Source: Chloroflexota bacterium
Lineage (GTDB): Bacteria > Chloroflexota > Limnocylindria > Limnocylindrales > CSP1-4
Direction of reading: 5' to 3'
Length of the DNA: 33,640 bases
Assembly (NCBI GenBank): GCA_029778235.1
Contig: JAKOQS010000168.1
Location: 71,690-105,329, forward strand
The first letter of the stretch is position 1, and each line of letters starts with the position of its first letter. The notes under the pieces are model-generated. The model was not told the DNA's origin. It saw only the letters and a program-made list of their open reading frames with translations, and did not search any database. Positions 26,395 to 32,345 of the stretch are shown in pieces. A program made the position numbers and the translations under genes.

Positions 26395-28218
26395 ATGCGC
26401 ACCCGATCCCGGCTCGTCGCCTCCGCGGTCGCCGCGGTCATGACAGCCACGATGCTCGCGACGTCGGCCCTCCCGGTCCGGGCGGCGAACAAGCCTCCCG
26501 TGCAGAAGGCTCAGCCGACGCAGCAGGACGCGTACGTCCCCGGCCGGGCGATCACCGTGAACACGGACGTGCTGTCCGCGTCGGGGATGCCGGCATGGGC
26601 GATCGACCAGTACCTCGCCGCACACACCCCGCTCCCGCCCCTCGGCACGGCGTTCCTCGCCGCCGAGCGGGACTACGGCGTGAACGCGATCGTGCTCGTC
26701 GCCATCGCGATGCACGAGTCCGGCTACGGCAGGTCGGAGATCGCCCGGATCAAGAAGAACCTCTTCGGCTACATGGCCTTCGACCGCGACCCGTTCAAGT
26801 GGGCCGCGACGTTCAGCACCTACGCCGAGGGCGTGGACGTCGTCGCACGGTACATCCGCGACGGGTACCTCGTCCCCGGAGGCAGCTTCTACACCGGATT
26901 CCGGACGCTGCGCTCGATGAACCTCGCGTACGCGTCATCGCCCGTCTGGCAGTACGGCGTGGTACGCCACGCGAACTGGCTCATCGACGAGGTGCCCACG
27001 CTCGCGATGCGCAAGCTGCGGTTCGGCGCGGTCCGGCTCCCGGACGCGATGCGCGCCGCGGCGGTCTCGGACATCGCGGTCCGGTGGACGGCGGTCAAGG
27101 GCGCGGGCATCCCGGCCGGCATCCGCTTCTCGACGAGGTGGACCCCCGTCTCGATCGTCGAGACGGCCGTCGCGCTGCCCCGCAGGCCCGCCGAGCCCGC
27201 GTGGAGCCGGGTCGCACGTGCCGCCTCGATCCCGGGCACGCTGACGCTCTCGGTGCGGGCGCCGGTGCAGCCGGGGCTCTGGCGCCTGGACCTCGATCCC
27301 CGCGACTCGGACGGCACGGAGCTGCCCGCGGCCGACCACCCGCGCATCGCCTCGTCGATGGTCCGGGTGTACGCGCGAAGCGAGGCGGTGCTCGCCCTGG
27401 GCCGCGGCGATGACGACACCCTCATCGCGACGGTCAGATCCTCCGGGCCGGGCACCATCCGGGCGGCGGCCGAGGAGCCGGTCCAGGAGCTGGAGGCGTG
27501 GGCGATCCCGCTCGACGACGCCGCACCCGCCGTGCGGCTCGCCTCGGTGCGGGTGGCCGACGCGATCGGACCGGCGGCGGTCCCGCTGAAGGTGCCCCTC
27601 AGGAAGGCGACCCTGCCCGCCCTCGTCGTCCTCCGACTGAACGGCTCCTCGGCGAGCAGGATCGTGCCGGCTGTCGTCCTCGTCCGGCGCAGCACCTCCG
27701 GCAAGGCGGTGGTCACGACACCGTGGATCGTGGATCCGCGCACGTCGCAGGTCGTGGGCCGGCCCGCCTCGGAGCCGGCGCCCGTGGACATCGTCGGGAC
27801 GGAGACGCCCGGGACCTTGGCCGTGCGCGTCTCCGCGAAGGCAGTGGACCTGATCGCCACGCCGCTCCCCGACGCGTCGCCCACGCCCGCTCCGTCGCCG
27901 ACGCCGTCGGGCGTCTTCGCCGCGGAGGCATCGCCCGGTGCCGCGTCGCCGTCGCCAGCGCCTTCCGCGGCCCCGTCCGAGCCCGCGGTGGAGATGAGCG
28001 GGAGCCGCGTCATCGTCCGGACGATCGCGGTCGGCGGGCCGGCTCGGCCCACGCTCGTCGGCCCGTACATCCCCGCCCACGCGACGGGCGCGCTGCAGCT
28101 CCCGATCGACGGCCTGGCGCCGGGCATCCGCCTGGTCGTCGCGTGGCTCCAGCCGGAGGGAGGGCAGCCGACCCCGTTCTGGGTCGGCTGGCTGGAGGTC
28201 CTCGGCGACCCGGAGTGA
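26395..28218 (+). CDS. Secreted glucosaminidase-domain protein
   Basis: A 607-residue exported protein. A classical signal peptide (Arg-rich start, hydrophobic core, PVRAA near residue 31) is followed by a glucosaminidase-type cell-wall hydrolase domain at about 80-200. It has AIVLVAIAMHESGYGRSEIA with the likely catalytic Glu108, then KKNLFGYMAFD and WAATFSTYAEGVDVVARYI, as in LytD-like enzymes that cut glycan strands. Residues of about 200-480 form beta-rich segments of unknown type. A Pro/Ser/Ala linker (about 497-530) precedes a final beta domain. AGAGGA lies 14 nt before the ATG, which is distant. The role inferred is peptidoglycan remodelling; no partner gene is evident. Confidence 0.8.
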   Translation: MRTRSRLVASAVAAVMTATMLATSALPVRAANKPPVQKAQPTQQDAYVPGRAITVNTDVLSASGMPAWAIDQYLAAHTPLPPLGTAFLAAERDYGVNAIVLVAIAMHESGYGRSEIARIKKNLFGYMAFDRDPFKWAATFSTYAEGVDVVARYIRDGYLVPGGSFYTGFRTLRSMNLAYASSPVWQYGVVRHANWLIDEVPTLAMRKLRFGAVRLPDAMRAAAVSDIAVRWTAVKGAGIPAGIRFSTRWTPVSIVETAVALPRRPAEPAWSRVARAASIPGTLTLSVRAPVQPGLWRLDLDPRDSDGTELPAADHPRIASSMVRVYARSEAVLALGRGDDDTLIATVRSSGPGTIRAAAEEPVQELEAWAIPLDDAAPAVRLASVRVADAIGPAAVPLKVPLRKATLPALVVLRLNGSSASRIVPAVVLVRRSTSGKAVVTTPWIVDPRTSQVVGRPASEPAPVDIVGTETPGTLAVRVSAKAVDLIATPLPDASPTPAPSPTPSGVFAAEASPGAASPSPAPSAAPSEPAVEMSGSRVIVRTIAVGGPARPTLVGPYIPAHATGALQLPIDGLAPGIRLVVAWLQPEGGQPTPFWVGWLEVLGDPE

Positions 28219-28303: not shown

Positions 28304-28333
28304 TTGACACGCCCGAGCCGGCGCCCATAGACT
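28304..28333 (+). promoter_or_regulatory. trp operon promoter
   Basis: A perfect -35 TTGACA (28304-28309), an 18-bp spacer and TAGACT (28328-28333). The start would fall near 28340, which leaves a leader of about 355 nt holding the T-box. This is the best sigma-70-type promoter in the window. Confidence 0.8.
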
Positions 28334-28339
28334 CCCGCC

Positions 28340-28651
28340 ACATCGCGAAGAACGGGCTGTGAACGGGACGAGTACCCGTCGCGGCGTCGGCAGAGAGACC
28401 CGGCGGCTGGTGGAAGCCGGGGCGACGACGGCGGCGAATGGACCCGGGAGCCTCCGGACCCAACGGACGGTGGTCGCACCGCCGCCCCAGTAGGCTCCGG
28501 CGCAGAGCGCCAGCGATAGAGGGCAGCGCCGATCGGACGGGGGCATCGCCGCCGGGCTCGTCGGTCACGGAGAGCGGCGTCGCAGGACGCCGAATGCGGG
28601 TGGCACCGCGGAGGGCACGGCCTTTCGTCCCGGAGGACGGAGGGCTTTTTT
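28340..28651 (+). promoter_or_regulatory. Tryptophan T-box riboswitch (leader of trpE)
   Basis: This leader fills the 477-bp gap between the glucosaminidase gene and trpE. It should bind uncharged tRNA-Trp and then prevent premature termination. Visible elements in order are: stem I with an AGAGAG bulge (28392-28397) and the distal GGTGGAAGCCGG segment (28409-28420); the specifier sequence GAATGGACC with UGG, the Trp codon, at 28439-28441; the AGTAGGCTCCGGCG segment following stem I (from 28489); stem III GGCGTC/GACGCC; and the T-box sequence GGGTGGCACCGCGG (28598-28611). The bulge reads UGGC, complementary to a tRNA end GCCA, as expected for bacterial tRNA-Trp with discriminator G. The stem I helix boundaries were not folded by computer. 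Confidence 0.93.
28620..28651 (+). terminator. T-box intrinsic terminator before trpE
   Basis: GCCTTTCGTCC (28620-28630), loop CGGA and GGACGGAGGGC (28635-28645) form an 11-bp stem with a few G-U pairs, followed directly by six T. The left arm includes the TTTCGTCC piece that would pair with the T-box sequence in the antiterminator form. It ends 44 nt before the trpE ATG. Confidence 0.92.
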
Positions 28652-28695
28652 CATGCGCCGTGCGTGCGGCGCCTGCAGGTCCGGAGGGATGGTCG

Positions 28696-30429
28696 ATGCC
28701 GGTCACGAACCCGCTCAGCCTCGCCGAGGTGCGCCGGCTCGCCGCGGGTGCGGACACCGTCCTCCTGCGGGCCGGACGCGACGCGGACCTCGAGACGCCG
28801 ATCGGCGCGTTCATGCGCCTCGACGACGGCGGCCCGGCCTATCTCCTTGAGAGCGTCGAGGGCGGCGAGCGTCTCGGCCGCTACAGCTTCTTCGGCGTGG
28901 GCCCGCGGCGGATCCTCACCGCGGACCTCGACGGTGCGCGGGTCCAGGCGCGGCCGGTGGAGGAGGCCCGGTGGGATGCCTCGCTGCCGGTGGAGAGCCT
29001 GCCGTCCGCCGACCCACTCGACGCGCTCCGGCGGTTCGTCCCCCGGCGCCGGGTCGAGCCCCTCGCCGGCATGCCCCGGTTCATCGGCGGTGCGGTCGGT
29101 GCGCTCGCGTACGACGCCGTCTCCGTCTTCGAGCCGACCGTCCCGCTGCCCGAGCGAGACCCCGTGGGCGTCCCGCTGGCGACCTTCCTCGAGTCCGACC
29201 TCGTCCTCGTCTTCGACCACCTCACGCACACCCTGTCGGCGATCGCGGCCCTGCACACCGAGGCGCCGCGGATCGAGGAGCGGTACCGCATCGCCGAGCG
29301 GGCGATCTGGGACGCCCTGGAGCGGACCGGCCGGCCTGTCGCGGCGGAGTCGTCCTTCCGTGGCCCCGAGGCGGAGGCGCCGGAGACGGCCGGCGGACCC
29401 CCCGGTGCTGCGGCGGGCGGCTCGGCGTCCACCGGCGACCGGGATCCGGACGCCGAGGCGGGCGAGGGTCGTGCGAGCCTCGGCCGGGCGGCATACGAGC
29501 ACGCGGTCGTCGTCGCCAAGGAGGCGATCGCATCGGGGGAGGCGATCCAGGTGGTCCTCGCCCGGCGCCAGACGGTCGACCTGCCGACGGGGCAGGACGG
29601 ACGACCCGTGGACGGCCTTGCCGTCTACCGGGCGCTCCGGCGCGTGAACCCGAGTCCGTACCTGTTCTTCGTGCGGACACCGTCGTTCGACGTCGTCGGC
29701 GCGAGCCCGGAGCTCCTCGTCCGCGTCACCGGTCGGAAGGTCGCCACGCACCCCATCGCCGGCACGCGGCGTCGCGGTGCCGACGACGCGGAGGACCGCC
29801 GGCTCGCGGAGGAGCTCCAGGCCGACCCCAAGGAGCGCGCCGAGCACGTCATGCTCGTGGACCTGGGCCGCAACGACCTCGGGCGCGTCGCGGAGCCCGG
29901 GAGCGTGGCCGTCACGAAGTACATGGAGGTCGAGCGGTACAGCCATGTCCTCCACCTCGTCAGCCATGTCGAGGCCAGGCTCGCGAACGGGCGCGACTCG
30001 CTCGACGCCCTGCGGAGCGTCTTCCCGGCCGGGACGCTCACCGGCGCGCCCAAGGTCCGCGCGATGCAGCTCATCGCGCGTGCCGAGGGGGAGCGCCGCG
30101 GGCTCTACGGCGGCGCGGTCGGGTACCTCGGATACGACGGGGACCTCGACACGGCGATCACCATCCGCAGCGCGGTCCTCACGAACGGGCTGGCGCACAT
30201 CCACGCCGGCGCGGGCATCGTGAAGGGGAGCGAGCCCGTGTCCGAGTTCCGCGAGACGGAGGCCAAGGCGGCCGCGATGCGGCGGGCCATCGAGGCCGCG
30301 GGAGCCGCCGCCGCGAACGTCGCCGCCACGACGACCGCCGAGACGGGGGCCGCAGCGGCGACCGCGACCCTCGGCGCCGACGGCGGCGCGGTCGCCGGGA
30401 GGGTCGCCGGCGGGGAGGCTGCGTCGTGA
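28696..30429 (+). CDS. trpE: Anthranilate synthase component I
   Basis: A 577-residue enzyme that makes anthranilate from chorismate, using ammonia supplied by TrpG. The allosteric tryptophan-binding LLES motif is present at residues 50-53 (PAYLLESVEGGERLGRYSF), so feedback inhibition is expected. The catalytic half carries IQVVLARRQ, NPSPYLFFV, HPIAGTRRRG, HVMLVDLGRNDLGRV, AGTLTGAPKVRAM and GAGIVKGSEP. Two low-complexity parts are unusual: a Gly/Ala/Asp/Glu-rich insert at about 215-258, between the two halves, and an Ala-rich tail from about 533. GGAGGG (28683-28688) stands 7 nt before the ATG. The stop overlaps the next GTG by 4 bp. Transcription is governed by the upstream T-box. Confidence 0.97.
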   Translation: MPVTNPLSLAEVRRLAAGADTVLLRAGRDADLETPIGAFMRLDDGGPAYLLESVEGGERLGRYSFFGVGPRRILTADLDGARVQARPVEEARWDASLPVESLPSADPLDALRRFVPRRRVEPLAGMPRFIGGAVGALAYDAVSVFEPTVPLPERDPVGVPLATFLESDLVLVFDHLTHTLSAIAALHTEAPRIEERYRIAERAIWDALERTGRPVAAESSFRGPEAEAPETAGGPPGAAAGGSASTGDRDPDAEAGEGRASLGRAAYEHAVVVAKEAIASGEAIQVVLARRQTVDLPTGQDGRPVDGLAVYRALRRVNPSPYLFFVRTPSFDVVGASPELLVRVTGRKVATHPIAGTRRRGADDAEDRRLAEELQADPKERAEHVMLVDLGRNDLGRVAEPGSVAVTKYMEVERYSHVLHLVSHVEARLANGRDSLDALRSVFPAGTLTGAPKVRAMQLIARAEGERRGLYGGAVGYLGYDGDLDTAITIRSAVLTNGLAHIHAGAGIVKGSEPVSEFRETEAKAAAMRRAIEAAGAAAANVAATTTAETGAAAATATLGADGGAVAGRVAGGEAAS

Positions 30430-32345
30430 TCCTCGTCATCGACAACTACGACTCGTTCACCTTCAACCTGGTGCAGGCGCTCCAGGCGGCGGGCGCGGAC
30501 GTGGTCGTCCTTCGCAACGATGCCATCGACCGGGCCGGGATCGAGGCGCTGGCCGACGACCCGGGAGCGAGCCTGCACGGCATGGTCATCTCGCCGGGTC
30601 CGGGAGACCCCGACGACGCCGGGGTCAGCGTGGAGGCCATCCGGGTCGCGGCGGAGCGGGGGATCCCGGCGCTGGGCGTCTGCCTCGGGATGCAGTCGAT
30701 GGGGGCCGCCTTCGGCGCCGCGATCGTGCGCGCGCCGACCCTCGTCCACGGCGAGGCCTCGCCCGTGACTCACGACGGCCGCGGCCTCCTCGCGGGGCTG
30801 TCGCCCGGGTTCATGGCGGCCCGCTACCACTCGCTCGCGGTGGACCCGGCGACGCTGCCTGCCGAGTTCGAGGTCAGCGCGACCGCGGAGGACGGGAGCG
30901 TGCTGATGGGGATGCGCCACCGGAGCCTCCCGCTGGAGGGCGTCCAGTTCCACCCAGAGTCCGTGCTCACCCCGGAGGGACCGCACCTGCTCGCGAACTT
31001 CCTCCGCCAGGCCGGCGAGGGCGAGGCATCCGTCCTCGACGCCGCCACGGGAACGTTCGCGACCCGCGGCCTCACGGACCCGGCGTCGGCCGAGGAGCCC
31101 GGCCCCCACGACCTGCCGGCCGGGCCGGAGCTGGCACCGGCGACCACGGCGGCGCCGGCGACCACGGCGGCGCCGGCGGCCGAGACCGCGGCGGCGGCCG
31201 AGGCGATCTCCCATGCACTCCATCGTGTCGTGGAGGGCGGGACGCTCTCGTTCGATGAGGCCCGCGCGGCCATGGGAGCGGTCATGGACGGTGCCGCGAC
31301 ACCGTCGCAGCTCGCGGCCCTCCTCGTCGCGCTCCGGATGCGCGGGGAGACCGTTGACGAGCTCGCCGGCTTCGCCGCGGCGATGCGGGACCGCGTCGTC
31401 CGCGTGGACGCGCCCCCGGGGACCGTGGACACGTGCGGCACCGGGGGCGACCGGAGCGGGACGTTCAACATCTCGACGACGGCCGCCCTCGTGGTCGCGG
31501 CGGCCGGCGTCCCGGTCGCCAAGCACGGGAACCGCGCGATCACCTCGCGCTCCGGCTCCACCGACGTCCTGGACGCCCTCGGCATCCGCATCGACCACGA
31601 CGCGGACTCGGCCGCGGCGGCGCTGCGGACGGACGGGTTCGCGTTCCTGTTCGCGCCCGCGTTCCATCCCGCGATGCGCCATGCCGGGCCCACCCGTCGC
31701 GAGATCGGGGTGCGGACGGCATTCAACCTCCTGGGTCCCCTCACGAACCCGGCCGGCGCGCGCCGCCAGGTGATCGGGGTGGGTGCCGCCGACGCGGCGC
31801 CGCGGCTCGCGGAGGTCGTGGCGAGACTGGGCACCGATCGCACGCTGCTCGTGCACGGCGCCGGGATCGACGAGATCCCGCTCGACGGGACCGGCGTGCT
31901 CTACGACGTGAGCATGGCGGGGGTCGCGCGCCGGCAGGTGGACGCGATCGCGCTGGCCGCGCTCGGCATCACTCCCGCGGCGACCGCCGACCTCGCCGGT
32001 GGCAGCCCGGAGGAGAACGCGGCACTCGTCGAGGCCGTCCTCGGCGGCGAGCGCGGCCCGCGCCGGGACGTGGTCCTCCTCAATGCCGCCGCGGCCCTGG
32101 TCGCGGCCGGGCGGGTCCCCGATCTCCGCGAGGGCGTCGGGCTGGCCGCCGCGACGATCGACGCAGGCCGCACGGCGGACCTGCTGGGTCGCCTGCGTGC
32201 AGCCCGCCGTGTCCACGAGGACGCCCGGGCCGTGGCCGCCGCCGACGCTGTCGCCGCCGGCGCGCCGAGCGGGGAAACGGCCGCCGGCCCCGCCCCCGCC
32301 AGCCTGTCCGCGCCGGCAGGCCCTTCGATCGGAGCGCCCCGGTGA
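30426..32345 (+). CDS. trpGD: Fused anthranilate synthase component II / anthranilate phosphoribosyltransferase (TrpG-TrpD)
   Basis: A 639-residue bifunctional protein in one uninterrupted frame. Residues 1-195 are the TrpG glutamine amidotransferase: IDNYDSFTFNLVQAL, ISPGPGDP, GVCLGMQ with nucleophile Cys86, and GVQFHPESVLTPEG with His176 and Glu178. A low-complexity linker (about 196-258, with a duplicated PATTAA) leads to TrpD, which transfers anthranilate to PRPP: DTCGTGGDRSGTFNIST (335-351), VAKHGNRAITSRSGSTDVL and TRREIGVRTAFNLLGPLTNP. The end is another Ala/Gly-rich tail. The GTG overlaps the trpE stop. A TrpG-TrpD fusion is known from enteric bacteria. No Shine-Dalgarno and start pair suggests a separate trpD. 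Confidence 0.95.
   Translation: MILVIDNYDSFTFNLVQALQAAGADVVVLRNDAIDRAGIEALADDPGASLHGMVISPGPGDPDDAGVSVEAIRVAAERGIPALGVCLGMQSMGAAFGAAIVRAPTLVHGEASPVTHDGRGLLAGLSPGFMAARYHSLAVDPATLPAEFEVSATAEDGSVLMGMRHRSLPLEGVQFHPESVLTPEGPHLLANFLRQAGEGEASVLDAATGTFATRGLTDPASAEEPGPHDLPAGPELAPATTAAPATTAAPAAETAAAAEAISHALHRVVEGGTLSFDEARAAMGAVMDGAATPSQLAALLVALRMRGETVDELAGFAAAMRDRVVRVDAPPGTVDTCGTGGDRSGTFNISTTAALVVAAAGVPVAKHGNRAITSRSGSTDVLDALGIRIDHDADSAAAALRTDGFAFLFAPAFHPAMRHAGPTRREIGVRTAFNLLGPLTNPAGARRQVIGVGAADAAPRLAEVVARLGTDRTLLVHGAGIDEIPLDGTGVLYDVSMAGVARRQVDAIALAALGITPAATADLAGGSPEENAALVEAVLGGERGPRRDVVLLNAAAALVAAGRVPDLREGVGLAAATIDAGRTADLLGRLRAARRVHEDARAVAAADAVAAGAPSGETAAGPAPASLSAPAGPSIGAPR
31137..31172 (+). repeat. Perfect 18-bp tandem duplication in the TrpG-TrpD linker
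   Basis: ccggcgaccacggcggcg occurs at 31137-31154 and 31155-31172, followed by a partial third copy. It encodes PATTAA repeats and only lengthens the interdomain linker. Confidence 0.85.

Follow-up and report, generated by a model that had tools for sequence, protein, structure and literature searches.

A predicted tRNA-Trp-specific T-box ahead of trpE-trpGD-trpCF in an uncultivated Chloroflexota lineage

Positions 28304–28695 of the window (the whole stretch of 33,640 nucleotides analysed here) almost certainly constitute a class I (transcriptional) T-box, specific for tRNA-Trp and located before trpE-trpGD-trpCF. We reached this reading because of (i) the matches to the T-box covariance model; (ii) the anatomy of the leader; (iii) covariation among orthologous leaders; (iv) the agreement of codon and discriminator; and (v) the trp genes that follow. 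The same evidence supports the proposal of the initial annotation, made from the DNA letters alone, that a transcription-attenuating tryptophan T-box precedes a trp operon, and it allows a firm prediction of how tryptophan synthesis is regulated in an uncultivated lineage of Chloroflexota.

The layout is that of a textbook transcriptional T-box (Table 1). The TTGACA promoter of the initial annotation is present, with TAGACT 18 nt further on, and is the only promoter-like site between 28000 and 29000, where shuffled sequences gave 0.0; TTGAC and a TAGACT-like −10 element are kept at an equal position in nearly all orthologous leaders. The T-box sequence that had been read is present as well, and its 13-base core, GGGTGGNACCGCG, appears a single time on the plus strand of the window, as compared with 0.007 occurrences per Markov-shuffled window; the combination of GGGTGGNACCGCG with GAANNNACC 90–230 nt upstream was found in none of 300 shuffled windows. 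The terminator had been described as an 11-bp stem followed by six T: the hairpin and the run of six T are there, while the stem amounts to 12 bp when the terminal G-U is counted. One terminator was found, against 0.1 in shuffles. Stem II is provisionally assigned to 28453–28498, by analogy; its AGTA is conserved in the orthologues, and its arms vary in length.

Table 1. Features of the trp leader and of the adjoining genes (window coordinates)
Feature	Position	Strand	Basis
Upstream gene, weak peptidoglycan-hydrolase match	26395–28218	+	family search
Sigma-70-type promoter: TTGACA 28304–28309, 18-nt spacer, TAGACT 28328–28333	28304–28333	+	promoter-pattern search
Stem I with AGTA 28371–28374, AGAGA 28392–28396 and distal loop GGTGGAAG 28409–28416	28355–28452	+	RF00230 28356–28451
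Specifier UGG (Trp) in GAA-UGG-ACC 28436–28444	28439–28441	+	inside RF00230 match; invariant in orthologues
Predicted stem II region with AGTA 28489–28492	28453–28498	+	orthologue conservation; analogy with the L018 model alignment
Stem IIA/B equivalent: GGCGC-AGA-GCGCC, then AGCGATA	28499–28518	+	aligned to CG..CGUUA element in L018
Extra hairpin between IIA/B and stem III, not in the Rfam consensus	28529–28564	+	pairing in aligned leaders
Stem III, CGGCGTC/GACGCCG	28575–28592	+	sequence; inside second RF00230 match
Antiterminator with T-box GGGTGGCACCGCGG 28598–28611 and tRNA-pairing bulge UGGC 28601–28604	28597–28632	+	RF00230 28570–28632
Intrinsic terminator: 12-bp stem, 4-nt loop, T tract (hairpin 28619–28646)	28619–28651	+	terminator search, folding
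Shine-Dalgarno GGAGGG, about 30 nt past the terminator T tract	28683–28688	+	sequence
trpE	28696–30429	+	TIGR00564, E 1.7e-136 over 30–533
trpG-trpD fusion, overlaps trpE by GTGA	30426–32345	+	NF011201, E 2e-175
trpC-trpF fusion, truncated by contig end	32342–33640	+	TrpC, E 2e-71; TrpC/TrpF bifunctional model, E 3e-64

The Rfam covariance-model search with RF00230, which the initial annotation had proposed, gave two collinear matches on the same strand, at 28356–28451 (48.1 bits, E 1.3e-9) and 28570–28632 (27.3 bits, E 2.9e-4), both under the gathering score of 93 that is the curated cut-off for this family. Because each piece scores below that cut-off, an Rfam scan of the window at default threshold does not report the T-box. 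Between the two matches lies the long middle of the leader (the variable stem II, the IIA/B-like hairpin and the extra hairpin), and the low scores are probably due to the extra hairpin of this lineage together with the length and GC-richness of that middle. Orthologues from the same family match RF00230 over its full length with up to 82 bits, and in one of them (L018) the alignment covers the model from end to end and shows the equivalent extra sequence as an insertion. At E 0.001, no other RF00230 match was found anywhere in the window's draft genome. The model was matched in 152 of the 177 genomes of the class, with just four above the cut-off, and in 360 of 400 sampled Chloroflexota genomes; the Rfam cut-off overlooks T-boxes of GC-rich Chloroflexota. 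In one family of the same order with genomes of about 1 Mb (f2, G107–G120), none of the listed genomes matches RF00230, consistent with the loss of T-boxes in streamlined relatives.

Nearly all of the loci L033–L079 that reach upstream of trpE contain GGGTGG[CT]ACCGCG 75–206 nt before the gene. In an alignment of 36 orthologous trpE leaders, the window's included, the T-box core GGGTGG-ACCGCG is invariant, as is the specifier UGG (T99, G100 and G101 of the first row), which the initial annotation had correctly placed in the GAA-NNN-ACC context and which lies within the first RF00230 match. Since RNAalifold applied to the whole alignment mixed the antiterminator with long-range pairs, we counted pairing in the named T-box structure instead, and found 97.8% of its cells to be standard-paired. 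Two-sided changes occur in 72 cells, compared with 20.3 ± 5.4 in shuffles (0 of 500 reach 72) and with 1–14 when the partners are slid, and 11 of the 12 pairs that carry such changes belong to stem I. The antiterminator is paired in 100% of cells and almost invariant, the pairs of the helix equivalent to stem IIA/B are invariant, and the extra hairpin is paired in 97% of cells with zero two-sided changes; as the hairpins of the middle part are invariant or changed on one side, they are backed by conservation rather than by covariation. The terminator hairpin occupies an equal position in most orthologues, and it varies mainly by G-U/A-U exchange in the 3′ arm, because the antiterminator constrains the 5′ arm.

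A compact, 172-nt trp T-box was observed in one relative (L072 at about 2402, on the same contig as L031:1501–1672), in which the T-box sequence follows the specifier by 49 nt; it keeps UGG, the T-box and the terminator hairpin but has lost the extra hairpin together with stem II and IIA/B. This form comes from a single MAG and may be an assembly error. We suggest only tentatively, and judge it somewhat improbable, that this lineage has a structural subtype of trp T-box, marked by the extra conserved hairpin, the altered IIA/B (GCGAUA) and, in one relative, the compact form; such a subtype, if real, could reveal how much variation the middle of a T-box tolerates without loss of function.

The initial annotation had named a tRNA-Trp with anticodon CCA and discriminator G as the expected partner, and ARAGORN identifies this tRNA in 12 genomes of the family, two of them from the same genus, with G73 and the 3′ end GCCA in every case. 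The UGGC bulge of the window pairs with this GCCA end without wobble; UGGU stands in its place in 46% of the Trp T-boxes of TBDB (PMC7778990). A tRNA-Trp gene was not found among the 44 tRNA genes of the window's own draft genome (3.7 Mb), using two patterns and RF00005. As this genome is 91% complete and the gene is present in relatives, we attribute the absence to an assembly gap: most likely the tRNA-Trp is lacking from the assembly and not from the organism.

Downstream of the leader, the trp genes overlap by GTGA at both junctions (trpE/trpGD and trpGD/trpCF), and the window ends where the contig ends. Two gene fusions, trpG-trpD and trpC-trpF, thus occur within one operon. Close relatives of trpE are from Chloroflexi MAGs, several of them named Candidatus Limnocylindrales, an order that NCBI places in the class Ca. 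Limnocylindria of the phylum Chloroflexota; these named relatives bear out the earlier assignment of the DNA to a Chloroflexota genome.

By analogy with characterized members of the T-box family, which is also the ground on which tRNA binding, the sensing of charging and termination itself are predicted here, transcription would start near 28340 and the specifier UGG in stem I would pair with the anticodon CCA of tRNA-Trp. When uncharged, this tRNA is expected to pair through its GCCA 3′ end with the UGGC bulge and to stabilize the antiterminator (28597–28632), so that trpE-trpGD-trpCF would be transcribed; if it is charged with tryptophan, the antiterminator would remain unstabilized, the stronger terminator (28619–28646) would form and transcription would stop at the T tract. 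The 36-nt antiterminator folds with −15.6 kcal/mol and the terminator with −19.5 kcal/mol, the terminator being the default fold. Furthermore, one and the same segment serves as 3′ arm of the antiterminator and as 5′ arm of the terminator, and, as 14 bases (28619–28632) are shared, the two structures are mutually exclusive.

The T tract is broken in several orthologues (e.g., GTTTCGATTC), and in L039, L045 and L093 the terminator hairpin is short under an ungapped count, from which we infer that termination strength varies. The interrupted tracts, together with the existence of translational T-boxes in Actinobacteria (PMC7778990), would also fit a tRNA-Trp T-box of mainly translational action, in which an alternative fold would hide the trpE ribosome-binding site. 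We nevertheless consider this very unlikely for the window, in which a 12-bp hairpin is followed by six T, the Shine-Dalgarno sequence stands about 30 nt beyond the hairpin and outside both antiterminator and terminator, and stem I has its full length, whereas stem I of translational T-boxes tends to be shorter (PMC7778990). Among the orthologues, moreover, the distance from T-box to trpE ranges from 75 to 206 nt while the position of the hairpin is fixed.

Ribosome-mediated attenuation, in which a Trp-rich leader peptide would be translated, is a common control of trp operons in other bacteria. Here it was rejected, as the leader open reading frames hold at most one Trp codon each, and neither the T-box landmarks nor the covariation requires a ribosome; its probability appears negligible. 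The low covariance-model score in the window might, in turn, point to a decayed T-box that no longer works, yet all functional motifs are intact and are conserved in the lineage with compensatory changes, making decay extremely improbable. The transcriptional T-box therefore remains our reading of the leader.

Outside the window, a number of T-boxes of the class, about 300 nt in length, contain a tRNA gene: a complete tRNA-Ala(GGC) gene lies, on the same strand, inside stem III of a leucine T-box before leuS (in the class, L003:1501–1808, L007–L014, L016, L021, L023, L024, L026–L028, L209–L222, L224, L260 and L261; in other Chloroflexota families, L272–L279). In L003, a tRNA of 66.3 bits sits in the stem III loop of a T-box of 108.2 bits. 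ARAGORN detects a tRNA-Ala with anticodon GGC on the T-box strand in 31 leaders of the class, and two further embedded tRNA-Ala(GGC) genes (L260 and L261) were recognized by sequence reading. The specifier is CUC wherever it was parsed, and the bulge is UGGU in nearly all of these leaders and UGGC in L003. Behind the tRNA-bearing leaders we recognized, by reading, either leuS, a frame that we take to encode leucyl-tRNA synthetase, or an acetyltransferase-like gene followed by leuS. The acceptor stem of the embedded tRNA reads as retaining G3-U70, which is the alanine identity pair.

A first, loose tRNA-Ala pattern gave mostly chance matches and was replaced by an anticodon-plus-T-arm pattern, with which (divergent genes would escape it) each of eight near-complete genomes shows one credible tRNA-Ala(GGC), the embedded one; this is apparently the only such gene in these eight genomes. 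In the genome of the window, by contrast, tRNA-Ala(GGC) is free-standing. A T-arm-then-T-box pattern detects similar sequences in other families of Chloroflexota, and in all eight of those fetched tRNA-Ala(GGC) precedes the T-box sequence and a LeuS-like frame follows, with the T-box above the Rfam cut-off in four of the eight. On a simple reading, the leuS leader doubles as a tRNA precursor, and, since the tRNA precedes the terminator, it would be made whether or not leuS is transcribed. In the literature searched, with most subscription journals outside the search, we found no report of a tRNA gene inside a T-box. The embedded tRNA-Ala arrangement is stranger than the trp T-box of the window and, if confirmed, leuS T-boxes that carry a tRNA gene would matter more than it.

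The initial annotation implied that such an element is rare in Chloroflexota, a view that does not hold given the RF00230 matches in 360 of 400 genomes and two published reports: T-boxes of trpE and of a trpB-like gene were described in 2008 for Dehalococcoides, a Chloroflexi genus (PMC2494555), and Chloroflexi are listed among T-box-bearing groups in a comparative study (PMC3766115). In family f5 of the class, UGG-specifier T-boxes stand before a frame identified by eye as a trpB-type tryptophan synthase-like gene (L225 and L227), so that trp T-boxes of more than one kind occur in the class. The T-box of the window is a well-made, ordinary member of a family already known at trpE in this phylum, and its lineage-specific traits are modest. 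With the tryptophan type of RF00230 it shares stem I with specifier loop, AG-rich bulges and distal loop; stem II with AGUA, IIA/B, stem III, T-box antiterminator and terminator; and the UGG specifier and UGGC bulge for tRNA-Trp. It differs in being very GC-rich, in the extra conserved hairpin (28529–28564) between IIA/B and stem III, in having GCGAUA in place of the consensus CCGUUA, and in scoring under the Rfam cut-off. The Dehalococcoides T-boxes (PMC2494555), likened here by description, share phylum, amino acid and first gene with it and belong to a different lineage. The translational T-boxes of Actinobacteria are likewise tRNA-sensing leaders with a T-box sequence; in the window, however, the leader has an intrinsic terminator at its end, and the ribosome-binding site remains free.
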